A stretch of DNA of 37,215 nucleotides from Nitrospirota bacterium (GTDB lineage Bacteria; Nitrospirota; Thermodesulfovibrionia; Thermodesulfovibrionales; JdFR-88): the NCBI GenBank assembly GCA_021789935.1, contig JAJYIR010000023.1:1-37215 (forward strand). The letters run 5' to 3'. Shown piece by piece: positions 4,971 through 33,191 of this stretch. Position numbers and translations under genes: made by a program. Every line of letters begins with the position of its first letter. Position 1 is the stretch's first letter. The notes beneath the pieces were generated by a model. The model was not told the DNA's origin. It made no database searches and saw nothing but the letters and a program-made list of their open reading frames with translations.

Positions 4971-5057
4971 GGATAGCTAGCGGGCCCGATAGGGCAAGCG
5001 GACGGATGCAATAAATTTTTTCATGAAAAAAAGATCCTTGGCATCCGTGGCGTACGG

Positions 5058-5219
5058 TTTGCAGGTGCCCTTGCGGGGCAGAAAAAGGGAATCCCGTGGA
5101 AATCGGGAGCGGTCCCGCCGCTGTAACCGGGGACAAAAACCTTCGTGAGCCACTGTGCCTTAATAAGGGGCATGGGAAGGGAAGGTGAGGATGAACCGGG
5201 TAGCCAGAAGACCTGCCTG
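5058..5219 (+). ncRNA. Cobalamin (B12) riboswitch
   Basis: The region carries the conserved blocks of the adenosylcobalamin aptamer in order: GCAGGTGCCC, AAAAGGGAATCCCGTG, GGGAGCGGTCCCGCCGCTGT, GCCACTG, and the B12 box AGCCAGAAGACCTGCC (5202-5217). GCAGGT at 5061-5066 can pair with ACCTGC at 5211-5216 to close the aptamer. The element senses adenosylcobalamin and lies directly ahead of the cobalamin operon. With the terminator at 5321-5359 it is arranged as an off-switch: bound cofactor should favour termination. Confidence 0.97.
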
Positions 5220-5320
5220 TAACCCGGCATAAAAAGGCTTTTTCTCTCGTGGAAGGAGCGGGCGGTTTTTGGTGAAAACAAAGTCAAAGACTGTCCGGGG
5301 ATGAAGCAAACTGGGTGCAA

Positions 5321-19002: not shown

Positions 19003-19284
19003 ATGAAAGAAACCGAAAAAAAAGCCGTAAAAAAGAGCCCTAACCCTGCATTTATGAAGGCCATGAAGCCGAGCGCGGCGCTGGCGAAAATAGTGGGAAG
19101 TGAGCCTATGCCCAGGACAGAGATAACCAGGAAGCTCTGGGAATATATAAAGAAAAATAACCTCCAGGATGCGCAGAACAAGAGAAATATCAATGCCAAT
19201 GAGGACCTCCTGGCTATTTTCGACGGGAAGAACCAGGTCTCGATGTTCGAGATGACCAAGTTGGTCAATAAGCACTTGAGCTGA
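19003..19284 (+). CDS. SWIB/MDM2-domain small protein
   Basis: 93 residues. After a Lys-rich N terminus (about 1-24) the whole protein is one SWIB domain: MKPSAALAKIVGSEPMPRTE, ITRKLWEYIKKNNLQD, NKRNINANEDLLAIF and VSMFEMTKLVNKHL. SWIB domains are best known from eukaryotic SWI/SNF complexes, but short stand-alone versions occur in many bacteria, including Chlamydia, where a DNA-associated role is suspected. GGGAG lies 8 nt before the ATG, with a plausible promoter upstream. It is next to a VF530-type gene, another small DNA-binding family. Confidence 0.92.
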   Translation: MKETEKKAVKKSPNPAFMKAMKPSAALAKIVGSEPMPRTEITRKLWEYIKKNNLQDAQNKRNINANEDLLAIFDGKNQVSMFEMTKLVNKHLS

Positions 19285-19620: not shown

Positions 19621-20100
19621 ATGTTCGGTGAGATTGACATGAATCGCAAGAAAAAATCCCCTGCCCTGCACATCTTGCGCCGTTTTTCGAGCGGCCTGCC
19701 GGTACGCGAATCCGTCCGTGCCCTCTCGCGCAACAAGCTGCGAAGCGCGTTGCCGGTAATCGGGATCGGCATCGCTGCCGTAGTCTGCGTGATGGCCATC
19801 GGAGCGGCTGGCTCCCGAAGGGCAGAGCAGCAGTTCCGGAACCTGGGCGATAATTTTATTTGGATCGAGGCGGGCTCCCGGAATATTAACGGTGTGCGTT
19901 CAGGCAGCCATGGCATGAATACCCTCACTATGGTAGATGTGGAAGCTATTCGACAGGGGGTCCCTGGCATCAGGCGCGTTTCCCCGAATGTGGACGGCAA
20001 TGTTCCGGTCTCCTTCGGAGACCTCAACTGGACAACGCATTACCTCATCAGCATTGCCTCCATTTCCCTTCTTGTGGGCGGCATAGGCATCATGAATGTA
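19621..20100 (+). pseudogene. MacB-type ABC permease remnant (internal deletion)
   Basis: Residues 1 to about 139 of the open frame match the N-terminal part of MacB/FtsX-type permeases: RESVRALSRNKLRSALPVIG and IGIAAVVCVMAIGAAGS as the first membrane helix, then the start of the periplasmic domain (LGDNFIWIEAGS, MVDVEAIRQGVPGIRRVSP). At about 20038 the sequence jumps to YLISIASISLLVGGIGIMNV, which in intact MacB belongs near the C terminus, just before the last helices. Some 200 residues are missing, and at 20101 the frame runs into an unrelated toxin fragment. No ATP-binding partner lies nearby. The protein cannot be a working transporter. Confidence 0.8.
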
Positions 20101-20296
20101 TTTGCTCAGGGAAATTATGACGCCATAGCCAGTGATGATAAGCGCTTTTTGAAGAAGCTTGACTCGGCAAATATTCCTTTATAAAAGCAAAAAAATCAAG
20201 AAGCCGGAAGTGGACGGCATGCTGGAAGCGCTATCACCATTTATCAGTCGTGATGAACATGCTGTTGTGAAGTTGTATCTGGAGGAACAATCATGA
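20101..20296 (+). pseudogene. PIN-domain toxin, 3' remnant with frameshift
   Basis: The frame continues from the macB remnant as GNYDAIASDDKRFLKKLDSANIPL, the typical end of a PIN-domain RNase of the DUF3368/VapC-like group, with the conserved acidic SDD. It stops at 20184, but another frame continues YKSKKIKKPEVDGMLEAL, then SPFISRDEHAVVKLYLEEQS, and ends at 20294-20296 in an ATGA overlap with the antitoxin-like gene. So the original toxin lay directly ahead of and coupled to that gene, lost its 5' two thirds, and carries a frameshift or small deletion near 20177. Confidence 0.7.
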
Positions 20297-27490: not shown

Positions 27491-29287
27491 ATGTTTCCAA
27501 CCGGCAGGACAGGATGCGGCGATGTAAACGAGGGCCACATAGGGCAAGGGGAACTCCGGTTTTCAGGCTGGGTATTCAGGCGCAGGGACCATGGCGGGCT
27601 CATATTCATAGACTTGAGAGACAGAAGCGGCATCTTGCAGGTGGTCTTTAACCCGGAGGTGGCCCCGGAGGCGCACAGCCTGGCCCACGGTCTGCGGGCC
27701 GAATACGTTGTAGAGGTTTCGGGCAAACTGGGCAGGCGGCCTGAAGGCACCGAAAACCCCGGAATACCCACGGGGGGCGTGGAGCTTTACGCCGGTAGCC
27801 TTGCAATACTGAACGAATCCGCGCCGCTTCCTTTCAGCCTGGAAGACCAGGACACCTCGGAGGCCCTGAAACTGCGCTACAGGTACCTGGACCTGAGAAG
27901 TCCCCAGATGCAAAAGAACCTGTTTTTGAGGCACAGGGCCGTGAAAGCCATCCGGGACTACCTTGATTCCGAGAGTTTTATAGAGATAGAAACCCCGATG
28001 CTGACAAAAAGCACCCCGGAGGGGGCGCGGGACTACCTTGTGCCAAGCAGGGTGAACCCCGGCTTCTTTTATGCACTGCCCCAGTCCCCGCAATTGTTCA
28101 AGCAGATACTGATGGTATCCGGGTACGAGAGATATTTCCAGGTTGCCCGCTGTTTCAGGGATGAGGACCTGAGGGCGGACAGACAACCCGAATTCACGCA
28201 GATAGACATGGAGACCTCCTTCCTGGACTCCGAGGACATCATAAGGATTACCGAGGGAATGCTGGCGCGGGCCTTCAAGGAGACCAGGGGTGAGGACATC
28301 CCCATGCCATTCCCCAGGCTCACCTATAATGAGGCAATGGAGCGCTTCGGCTCCGACAAGCCGGACATGCGCTTCGGGCTGGAACTTGCCGATATGGCGG
28401 GCCCCGCCCGGAAAAGCACCTTCAAGGTCTTTCTGGACGCACTGGAAAAAGGCGGCAGGGTGATGGGCTTAAGGGGCATAGGGATGTCCGGCCTGTCCAG
28501 GAAAGAGGTGGACGACCTCACCAATTCCGTGAAAGAGATGGGCGCAAAGGGCCTGGCATGGATAAAGTTGAAAAATGGTTTTGATTCCCCCATAGCCAAA
28601 TTTTTCCCCAAAGAAGCCATGGAGGAAATGGCCGAAAGCCTGCACGCCCAGGATGGCGACATGATGCTTTTCGTGGCCGACACCCAGAAGGTCGTCCACA
28701 ATACGCTGGGAAGGCTGAGAGCCCAGCTTGGCAAAAAACTGGGCCTCATAGAGGAGGGTTGGCGGCCCCTGTGGGTAACAGATTTTCCCCTGCTGGAATG
28801 GGACGACGAGGAAGAGCGGTTTACAGCCGTGCACCACCCTTTCACTTCCCCCGCGGATGCGGACGTGGAACACATTCTTGCCGGTGACATAAATGATAAG
28901 GCCCTCCTTTCCTCGCTTACGGCCAAGGCCTACGACATAGTGCTTAACGGCTATGAGATAGGCGGCGGGTCCATCCGCATTCACAGGCAGGATGTGCAAA
29001 GCAGGATGTTTGAGATGCTTGGCATATCCAGGGAGGACGCACAGAAAAAGTTCGGGTTCCTGCTGGACGCCCTCCAGTTTGGCGCTCCGCCGCATGGCGG
29101 TCTGGCCCTTGGCCTGGACAGGCTTGTGATGCTCCTTTGCGGGGCGGATTCCATAAGGGACGTTATAGCGTTCCCCAAGACCTCAAAGGCGTTTGACATG
29201 ATGAGCGGAGCGCCGTCTGCCGTAGAGCCGAAACAGCTCAGGGAGCTTCATATCAAGCTGGATATTCCATTAGATGAAAACCTCTAA
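27491..29287 (+). CDS. aspS: Aspartyl-tRNA synthetase (bacterial type)
   Basis: 598 residues, full length. The N-terminal OB fold binds the anticodon ([20 protein letters not shown]), followed by the class II catalytic domain with motif 1 around [20 protein letters not shown], motif 2 ([18 protein letters not shown]), the bacterial GAD insertion domain (about 290-420) and motif 3 ([16 protein letters not shown]). It charges tRNA-Asp; whether it also charges tRNA-Asn depends on gatCAB, not visible here. The start codon follows the rluB stop directly and no distinct ribosome site is seen, which suggests translational coupling. A strong terminator lies 45 nt downstream. Confidence 0.97.
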
Positions 29288-29649: not shown

Positions 29650-30450
29650 TTACTTTTTAAGCTGCTTTACGGCCTGTTCTATCCGGCTTATCAGGGTTTG
29701 TTCAGGCAGCGCCCCCACCACTACTTCCCCGTCCGGAAGAATGAGTGTGGGAGTCCCGGTAATGTTCAGGCTCTTTCCAAGTGCGATGTTCCTGTCTATC
29801 TCCGGGGCCTTGCAGCCTGGTTTCGGGATGGGCTTGCCCTCAAGCGAATCCTCAAGGAGTTTTAACGAGTGCGTACACTGTATCTCCTGGGCCTTCTCCT
29901 TTGAGCCCGGGTGTATGGCAAGCGGGAAGAGCTTTATATAAAAAACGATGTCTTTTCTTTTTTTGACTATGTCCTTCATCACCTGATGAAGCCTGGCGCA
30001 GAAGGGTCAGACCGGGTCGTCGAAAACTATCACGCGGATGGGCGCGTTCGCCTTCCCCAGGACAAGCGCGTCACTTACGGGTATCTTGGCGACGTCAACC
30101 TTGTTAAGCTCGGACATTCTCTGGCTGGTTATGTCCGTCCTGGTCTTTATATCTATGATTGAGCCCTGGATCAGGTGCTTCTTGGCATAGTCGATGTAGA
30201 CGACGCTCTTTCTGCCCATAAAACCGAAAGTGACTTCCCATAGACCGCCCACCTTGGATTTTTTGACGCTAACGACTTTAACGGCGGGGTTAAAAGAGCC
30301 AAGGATGCTTTGGGCCTCGGAGGGCTTAAGGGAATGGCAGGACCGGCAGTCCCCCGAGCACGCGCCGGTCGTTCCGGCAAACCCGTACGAGCTTGCGGCC
30401 AGAACCAGGGCCGCGAATGTGGCGGCGATCAGTGCTATGAACTTTCGCAT
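29650..30450 (-). CDS. DsbC-like periplasmic thiol:disulfide protein, probable selenoprotein (UGA = Sec148)
   Basis: 266 residues when the TGA at 30007-30009 is read as selenocysteine. A signal peptide (MRKFIALIAATFAALVLAAS) is followed by C-S-G-D-C-R-S-C-H (residues 31-39, containing a CxxCH haem-c-type motif), a DsbC-like dimerisation region, and a thioredoxin-fold domain. The active-site region reads IVFDDPV-U-PFCARLHQ, so UGA replaces the first Cys of C-P-F-C, and the same frame continues without break through the LFPLAIHPGS region and the cis-Pro motif GTPTLILPDGEVV to the end KQLKK. A SECIS-like hairpin lies 15 nt after the UGA. DsbC-type proteins isomerise or reduce disulfides in the periplasm. 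The start at 30450 gives a clean signal peptide and lies 7 nt after a -10 box. A nonsense mutation is the alternative, less likely at this exact codon. Confidence 0.85.
29974..29991 (-). promoter_or_regulatory. Putative bacterial SECIS element
   Basis: In mRNA sense CUUCAUC, AGGU loop, GAUGAAG: a perfect 7-bp stem with a 4-nt loop that begins 22 nt after the in-frame UGA. As I recall the bacterial SECIS model, it asks for a short stem-loop with the apical loop some 16-37 nt after UGA and a G in the first two loop bases; all are met. The E. coli fdhF loop also has AGGU. SelB would bind it and deliver Sec-tRNA. Confidence 0.75.
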
Positions 30451-30457
30451 TTCGTTT

Positions 30458-30487
30458 AGTATATCACACCTGCAAATGCGCTGCCAA
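30458..30487 (-). promoter_or_regulatory. Promoter of the DsbC-like selenoprotein gene
   Basis: Minus strand TTGGCA (30487-30482), 18 nt, TATACT (30463-30458), then 7 nt to the ATG at 30450. No Shine-Dalgarno is present; a leaderless transcript is predicted. Confidence 0.6.
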
Positions 30488-30571
30488 AACAGCGGCCGGA
30501 ACAATAAAATAAAGTGGTTAGCGGCATCGGCTTTTTTCATTGCCTCCGGGCGGATTTACTTTCCTTTCACC

Positions 30572-30608: not shown

Positions 30609-33191
30609 ATGTCAGAGCTTACCCCCTTGATGAAGCAATACCAGCAGATCAAAGAGCGTTATCCTGACGCTATTTTGTTCTTTCGCCTGGGAGATTTTTA
30701 CGAGATGTTCGGGGAGGACGCCAGGGCGGCCTCCAGCATACTGCAGATAGCCCTTACCACGAGGGACAAGAGCAAGGACGATCCTGTGCCCATGTGCGGC
30801 ATACCTCATTTCTCCGCGGAGACGTACATCAACAAGCTGATAGCGGCCGGGCGCAAGGTGGCTGTCTGCGAACAGGTGGAAGACACCAAGGAACCCAAAG
30901 ACGGTAAAATTTTCATGCGGGAGGTCGTGCGGGTCATAACCCCAGGCACGCACACTCCCGAAAACCCCAAGGAGAACAACTTCATAGCCTCTTTTTTCCC
31001 GGTAGGCAGAAAACACGGGTTCGCGCTTGCGGATGTCTCCACCGGAGAGTTTTTCCTTTTTGAGACCGGCAACCCGTTTGAGGATGAGATAGGCAGGTTT
31101 GAGCCAAGGGAGATCGTATATCCTGAGAGCCTGGGGCGCGATCTCCGCTACGCCGGGGCGCTCAAAAACTATTTCACCACCGCCGCCGACGACTTTCTTT
31201 TTGATTATTCGGAGGCGTACAGGGGGCTCCTTTCCTATTTCAAGGTCTCAAGCCTTGCCGCCTTCGGATGCGAGGGTCTGCGTGCGGCCGTTTCCGCCGC
31301 CGGGGCGCTGCTGTCCGTGCTCCTGAGCACGCAGCGCGGCCCCCTGAGCTTCACGAAACTTATTCATCTTAAAGACAGCTCCGCCATGTTCCTTGATTAT
31401 TCCACAAGGAGGAACCTTGAGCTAATCCATAACCTCAAGGACGGAGGAAAGGACGGGACCCTCCTTTGGGCGCTGGATGAAACCTTGACTCCCATGGGTG
31501 GCAGGTTTCTGCGAAATGCGGTCCTGAACCCCCTTGTTGAACCGGATAAGGTCCAGCGGAGGCTCGGTGCAGTCTCTCTGCTGGTGGGTGAATACGAGCT
31601 CACGGACAAGCTCAGAGGCGCACTCAGGAAGATACAGGACCTCGAAAGGCTCGGCGCCAGGGTGCGTATGGGCACGGCAAACGCCAGGGACCTGATAGCC
31701 CTTAAAAACTCCTTAAAACCGCTGCCCGGCATCAAAAAGGCGCTTTCAGCCCCGGAGGACCCTGTCCTGGCGGAAGTCTCGACCGGTATGGGCGATTTCA
31801 CCCCGATGGTCAACTTCCTGGAGGCCAGCCTGAAAGAGCATCCTCCCCTCGGGCTCAAGGACGGAGGCATCATTCAAGAGGGCTTCCATCCCCAGGTGGA
31901 TGAATTAAGAACGCTTTGCACCAGCTCCAGGGATTACATCGCGGCCATGGAGGCCAGGGAAAAGCAGGCCACCGGGATAGCTTCCCTGAAGGTGGGCTTC
32001 AACCGTGTTTTCGGCTACTTTATAGAGGTGACCAAACCTAACCTCCCGCAGGTGCCCGGCCATTATATAAGGAAACAGACCCTCGTAAACGCGGAGAGGT
32101 TCATAACGCCTGAATTGAAGGACTACGAATCCAGGACCCTGGGGGCCCAGGAGCGGCTTACGGCGCTCGAATACGAGGTGTTCATGGGGGTGCTTGACAA
32201 GGTAAAAACCCAGGCCGCGGCCCTGAGGGAGACGGCGCAGCAGATAGGGTTTTTGGATTTCCTCATTTCCCTTGCCATAGTCGCCAAGCGGAACGATTAC
32301 GTAAGGCCGGAGGTGGACAACGGCTTCGCCCTTGAGATAGAAAACGGAAGACATCCGGTAATAGAACGCCTGAATCTGGGAGAACGGTTCATACCAAACA
32401 GCTCTGCCATGGACGGGGACAACGTCCGGATGCTCATAATAACCGGGCCCAATATGGCAGGTAAGTCCACTTACATGAGACAAAACGCCCTTATAGCCCT
32501 TATGGCCCAGATGGGTTCCTTCGTGCCGGCAGACCGTGCGCATTTGGGCATGGCGGACAGAATATTCACCAGGATAGGGGCGTCCGATTTCCTGAGCATG
32601 GGGCAGAGCACCTTCATGGTGGAGATGCTGGAGACAGCAAACATAATCCATAACGCCACCAAAAGGAGCATCATCGTCCTGGATGAGGTGGGCAGGGGCA
32701 CGAGCACTTTTGACGGCATAAGCATAGCCTGGGCCTCCGCGGAGCACATCGCAAAGAACATAAAGGCCCGCACTTTCTTTGCCACCCATTACAATGAGCT
32801 CACCGAACTGGCCATGGGCCTGGATGGCGTAAAAAACTGCAACGTTGCCGTAAAGGAATGGGGGGAGGAGATAATCTTCCTGAGGCGCATCGAGGAAGGG
32901 CCTTCGGACAAAAGCTACGGCATACAGGTGGGCAGGCTTGCCGGGCTGCCGCAGGAGGTAGTGGACAGGGCCAAGGCCATCCTCTCCAACCTGGAAAAGC
33001 AGGTGCTGTCATCCGGAGGGACCCCGCGCTTGTGGGCGGGAGGCCGGGGACGCACCAGGCAGCTTGGGCTCTTCGGCGGCAAAGAGGACGCGATAGTGGA
33101 AGAGCTTCTCGGCGTGCCGGATGACATAAACGGAGAGGAGGCCCTACGGAAACTCCTTTCACTGAAAAAGAAGGCAAAAGGGAATTTTTAA
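30609..33191 (+). CDS. mutS: DNA mismatch repair protein MutS
   Basis: 860 residues, full length. MutS binds mismatches as a dimer and recruits MutL. The N-terminal mismatch-recognition domain has LFFRLGDFYEMFGEDA with the conserved Phe-x-Glu, followed by connector, lever and clamp domains and the ATPase: Walker A GPNMAGKST (about 612-620), DFLSMGQSTFMVEMLE, Walker B IIVLDEVGRGTSTFDG, and ATHYNELTELA. The C-terminal tail is short. mutL is not in the window. It is divergent from the selenoprotein gene. Confidence 0.98.
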   Translation: MSELTPLMKQYQQIKERYPDAILFFRLGDFYEMFGEDARAASSILQIALTTRDKSKDDPVPMCGIPHFSAETYINKLIAAGRKVAVCEQVEDTKEPKDGKIFMREVVRVITPGTHTPENPKENNFIASFFPVGRKHGFALADVSTGEFFLFETGNPFEDEIGRFEPREIVYPESLGRDLRYAGALKNYFTTAADDFLFDYSEAYRGLLSYFKVSSLAAFGCEGLRAAVSAAGALLSVLLSTQRGPLSFTKLIHLKDSSAMFLDYSTRRNLELIHNLKDGGKDGTLLWALDETLTPMGGRFLRNAVLNPLVEPDKVQRRLGAVSLLVGEYELTDKLRGALRKIQDLERLGARVRMGTANARDLIALKNSLKPLPGIKKALSAPEDPVLAEVSTGMGDFTPMVNFLEASLKEHPPLGLKDGGIIQEGFHPQVDELRTLCTSSRDYIAAMEAREKQATGIASLKVGFNRVFGYFIEVTKPNLPQVPGHYIRKQTLVNAERFITPELKDYESRTLGAQERLTALEYEVFMGVLDKVKTQAAALRETAQQIGFLDFLISLAIVAKRNDYVRPEVDNGFALEIENGRHPVIERLNLGERFIPNSSAMDGDNVRMLIITGPNMAGKSTYMRQNALIALMAQMGSFVPADRAHLGMADRIFTRIGASDFLSMGQSTFMVEMLETANIIHNATKRSIIVLDEVGRGTSTFDGISIAWASAEHIAKNIKARTFFATHYNELTELAMGLDGVKNCNVAVKEWGEEIIFLRRIEEGPSDKSYGIQVGRLAGLPQEVVDRAKAILSNLEKQVLSSGGTPRLWAGGRGRTRQLGLFGGKEDAIVEELLGVPDDINGEEALRKLLSLKKKAKGNF

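Follow-up and report, generated by a model that had tools for sequence, protein, structure and literature searches.

An in-frame TGA codon predicted to encode selenocysteine in a DsbC-type protein with a probable N-terminal heme or redox tag, conserved across an order of Nitrospirota

The internal TGA codon of a DsbC-type gene from a Nitrospirota bacterium (contig JAJYIR010000023.1) almost certainly codes for selenocysteine (Sec) at the active centre of the encoded protein, as judged by comparison of homologous genes. The probability that the product is a Sec-containing DsbC-type enzyme was put at about 0.95, a figure that excludes the heme step considered below. All coordinates are positions in the window, i.e. 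the whole stretch of 37,215 nt that was analysed. The gene is encoded on the minus strand in a frame that starts with ATG at 30450 and ends with TAA at 29650, and the TGA at 30009..30007 is its sole internal stop. Two minus-strand open stretches split by one TGA had already been recognized, with the same end coordinates (29650-30450), in an earlier reading of this DNA from its letters alone (the sequence-only reading). The features of the locus are as follows.

29650..30450, minus strand: predicted Sec-containing DsbC-like gene of 266 codons, counting the TGA as Sec, and a stop codon
30373..30450, minus strand: predicted signal peptide, about residues 1-26, MRKFIALIAATFAALVLAASSYGFA (sequence by eye; helix 2-18 in the structure model)
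30334..30348, minus strand: CxxCH motif of heme-c type, CRSCH, residues 35-39 (alignment and homologue counts)
30127..30318, minus strand: DsbC_N dimerisation domain, PF10411, residues 45-108 (44.9 bits, cut-off 25)
29689..30036, minus strand: catalytic thioredoxin-fold domain, PF13098, residues 139-254 (63.8 bits, cut-off 27; fold match)
30007..30009, minus strand: TGA, predicted selenocysteine 148 of the U-P-F-C active site (sequence and homologues)
29974..29991, minus strand: putative SECIS-type hairpin of the bacterial kind, CUUCAUC-AGGU-GAUGAAG, with its apical loop 22 nt past the UGA

In the catalytic CPFC, the TGA takes the place of the first Cys (DDPV-U-PFC), while the second is retained, as are the structural Cys pair C192/C213 and the cis-Pro (T233-P234); the sequence-only reading had likewise placed the TGA at the first active-site Cys and had followed the frame past the cis-Pro to a normal C terminus. 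It had also expected that automatic annotation would split the gene, and mechanical ORF calling indeed yielded two pieces (30540..30007 and 29982..29650). Since standard annotation halves every Sec member of the family in this way, these bacteria would be recorded as lacking the isomerase or as having a broken one. The gene is solitary, with aspS (27491-29287, plus strand) and mutS (30609-33191, plus strand) as its neighbours, both names having been assigned by reading the sequence.

Homologues were fetched from the same Nitrospirota order and translated with TGA as a residue, and 59 of the 61 genomes searched gave matches. The active-site codon was TGA in 50 and TGC or TGT in 40 of the 90 homologues tabulated, and the total of TGA genes came to 51 when the homologue L126, with UPFS for UPFC, was counted beside the 50 tabulated ones. 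The TGA was kept at the same codon, with the frames otherwise open, in relatives at 43-85% identity, a degree of conservation well outside what chance would produce. On the maximum-likelihood tree, the Sec/Cys label needed 12 changes, at least 11 of which were forced by well-supported branches. The exchange of TGA and Cys codons among the homologues, together with their repeated changes on the tree, is the pattern of a selenoprotein and not of decay. A lone in-frame stop within a draft assembly could also stem from a sequencing error or from nonsense mutation of a DsbC gene in decay, but the identical TGA codon in dozens of independent genomes, with the downstream sequence intact and a conserved hairpin accompanying it, leaves this explanation a negligible probability. 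The pseudogene and sequencing-error readings were both rejected on the conservation of the TGA codon across the homologues. Thus the check proposed with the sequence-only reading, namely whether Cys stands at this codon in homologues, was borne out by 40 Cys homologues against 51 with TGA, and the outcome that had been named as speaking against Sec, TGA at random positions with a decayed downstream part, was not seen in any of the 51 genes, all of which carry it at the same codon and are intact downstream. Sec therefore appears to be retained in a predicted periplasmic disulfide isomerase over many genera of one Nitrospirota order. As a separate observation, L126 (G015:C1:2087550-2088550) is a Sec paralogue from which the resolving Cys has been lost.

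The hairpin downstream of the TGA was compared among the same genes. A fixed layout (UGA, 15 nt, 7-bp stem, 4-nt loop) was found in 50/50 tabulated Sec genes, with all seven stem pairs of the CUUCAUC-AGGN-GAUGAAG type in 49 of them and six of the seven in the remaining one, and one stem pair has undergone a compensatory change on both sides (U-A to C-G). At most 6 bp could be formed in 39/40 Cys genes, seven pairs being found only in L045. Synonymous codon choice was also recorded: the shared Leu codon was CTT in 51/51 Sec genes versus 10/21 Cys genes (P=1e-7), and the shared Lys codon was AAG in 51/51 Sec genes versus 8/20 Cys genes (P=1e-8), these P values being indicative because the sequences are related. 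Such a synonymous constraint, present in the Sec genes only, points to conservation of the RNA and not of the protein alone. The hairpin of the window, with its 7-bp stem, AGGU loop and spacing of 22 nt, falls within the geometry of the published bSECIS model, in which a G stands at loop position 1-2 and the spacing is 16-37 nt (PMC13188914). Support for the hairpin comes from the comparison, since the minimum-energy fold of the window sequence alone was a competing structure, not more stable than those of shuffled sequences. With at least 11 natural Sec/Cys changes and the hairpin gone from all Cys versions but one, the family offers a natural experiment on the retention of selenium. The exception, L045, is a TGT (Cys) homologue with the full SECIS-type hairpin and probably represents a recent change from Sec to Cys.

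The machinery for the decoding of UGA as Sec was searched for in the same genome, as the sequence-only reading had advised, and selA (594 bits), selB (368 bits) and selD (356 bits) were found. The selD gene carries an in-frame TGA of its own (SSCSG-U-AAKFSPKDL; L073 1300-2600; own genome C40:37940-38863) and, by its sequence, is itself a selenoprotein gene. The tRNA-Sec (selC) was not found in the 60-contig draft by the Rfam model, by the DNA of a same-genus copy or by pattern, synteny gave no location for it in this assembly, and there were no meaningful Rfam matches around selA and selB. The absence of both selB and tRNA-Sec had been named beforehand as evidence against Sec; it applies to the tRNA in this draft and not to selB. 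In the relatives, a tRNA-Sec was found above the Rfam cut-off in 16/18, two of which belong to the same genus, and ARAGORN called a tRNA-Sec with a UCA anticodon at 8/9 of the relatives' loci checked. Because close relatives have the tRNA, an assembly gap best explains its absence here; and because an integrase or transposase gene adjoins it in two relatives, it was likely lost to a gap at an integration hot spot.

The draft assembly without tRNA-Sec would also suit a reading in which near-cognate readthrough or a recoded genetic code places another residue, such as Trp or Cys, at the UGA. Against this, the genome encodes SelA, SelB and a SelD of Sec type, the SECIS-type hairpin tracks the TGA, tRNA-Sec is present in the relatives, and a protein with Trp at the catalytic Cys position should be inactive, so that insertion of another residue is very improbable.

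The assignment of the Sec protein to the DsbC family was examined by domain models, structure prediction and comparison with known systems. Both PF10411 (DsbC_N) and PF13098 (Thioredoxin_2) passed their Pfam cut-offs, the AlphaFold2 model had a mean pLDDT of 89 with DsbC of Salmonella and E. coli among its best structural matches, and the catalytic domain alone matched 3GV1 with a target TM of 0.82; domains and fold thus agree with the DsbC-like identity proposed from the sequence. The protein scored 68.5 bits against the curated DsbC equivalog model NF008129 (cut-off 215) and 14.9 bits against the DsbG-like selenoprotein model NF041057 (cut-off 190). By NF008129 it is DsbC-like without being an equivalog of the enterobacterial protein. 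With the DsbC domains and fold present and the score below the cut-off of the equivalog model, it belongs to a distinct branch of the DsbC family and is predicted to work like DsbC. As in E. coli DsbC (PDB 1EEJ), a signal peptide, DsbC_N, a thioredoxin-fold domain with the catalytic motif, the cis-Pro, an LH motif and a second Cys pair are present, whereas the predicted Sec at the first catalytic Cys and the N-terminal CxxCH extension distinguish the Nitrospirota protein. UxxC and the thioredoxin fold are held in common with the Sec DsbG-like (NF041057, Rcas_1661 family) and DsbA-like selenoproteins. DsbA-like proteins are not known to carry a DsbC_N domain.

The sequence-only reading had called the gene a probable new selenoprotein. 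Its place among selenoproteins is upheld by the conserved TGA, the hairpin and the presence of selA, selB and selD, but the word 'new' holds only in part, since the catalogued selenoprotein families already include Sec-containing thiol:disulfide interchange (PF13098, UxxC), DsbA-like and DsbG-like proteins (PMC13188914, PMC9312934, PMC1088965, PMC1794560). The first of these, represented by WP_011366075.1 and reported from Syntrophus and Geobacter (PMC13188914, PMC1794560), shares PF13098 and UxxC with the Nitrospirota protein, and the Nitrospirota proteins may belong to that family or form a separate subfamily. In the open-access literature searched, on DsbC or selenoproteins with a CxxCH and on Nitrospirota selenoproteins, no report of the architecture DsbC_N plus UxxC plus CxxCH was found, and among the matches listed in a plasmid search there were only ordinary DsbC proteins at <60% identity. 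The present family is set apart as a full-length DsbC with Sec that spans the clade and probably bears a heme or redox tag.

This tag, the CxxCH directly ahead of the DsbC_N domain, had gone unmentioned in the sequence-only reading. It was present in 64/90 homologues (41 Sec and 23 Cys), and C35, C38 and H39 were invariant across the 28 aligned homologues that bear it. The homologues read from f18, a family of Nitrospirota that lies outside the class and yielded Cys enzymes only, have the CxxCH as well; a set of second paralogues with Sec lacks it, as do the distant ordinary DsbCs. At the level of the motif, the protein thus has the mark of a c-type cytochrome, a CxxCH at residues 35-39 on a predicted exported protein, and a ResB-type cytochrome c maturation gene in the same genome makes heme attachment possible. 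The motif could instead form a structural disulfide, or serve as an accessory dithiol or metal site in electron exchange with UxxC. It lies in a linker of about 20 residues past the signal peptide, without a cytochrome domain and in a region where the confidence of the structure model is low; another Cys often, though not always, stands four residues upstream in the 28-sequence alignment, and no distal heme ligand was identified. Against such a non-heme role stand the invariance of the His along with both Cys, as heme attachment predicts, and the ResB cytochrome c maturation factor encoded in the genome. The non-heme role was accordingly rated at a little under even odds, and a heme site is no more than somewhat favoured over a bare dithiol.

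On the basis of these features, the gene would encode a thiol-disulfide isomerase/reductase of DsbC type with a Sec nucleophile, probably a homodimer, whose export is probable from the signal peptide. The UGA would be decoded by SelB and tRNA-Sec with the hairpin beginning 15 nt downstream, a step that comparative sequence evidence supports. By analogy with the mechanism of DsbC and thioredoxin, the periplasmic U148 selenolate would attack substrate disulfides and C151 would resolve the selenenylsulfide. The selenolate may, as the sequence-only reading suggested, make the protein a stronger reductant or speed up its catalysis. A gene for a CcdA-type DsbD-domain (DsbD_TM) protein is present in the genome, and its product is the most likely source of the reducing electrons. 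The weakest step concerns the CxxCH, which as a c-type heme site (most likely), or otherwise an accessory dithiol, might connect this enzyme with cytochrome c maturation or with the pool of periplasmic cytochromes. A whole family of heme-c-bearing Sec disulfide isomerases, in which DsbC dimers exchange electrons with periplasmic cytochromes via a built-in heme, is a tentative and rather unlikely extension of this scheme; if true, it would link respiration directly to disulfide repair, and the conserved CxxCH makes the connection of heme to disulfide repair testable. It was also observed that a CcdA-type protein gene (L147 1480-2956; own genome C24) adjoins genes for a multiheme c-type cytochrome and an iron-sulfur subunit.

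Elsewhere in the window, a Cobalamin riboswitch (5046-5234; 110.5 bits) was found upstream of a cobalamin biosynthesis cluster, a small bacterial protein with a SWIB/MDM2 domain is encoded at 19003-19284, and a short MacB-like permease fragment at 19621-20184, which by eye looks internally deleted, is likely a pseudogene.
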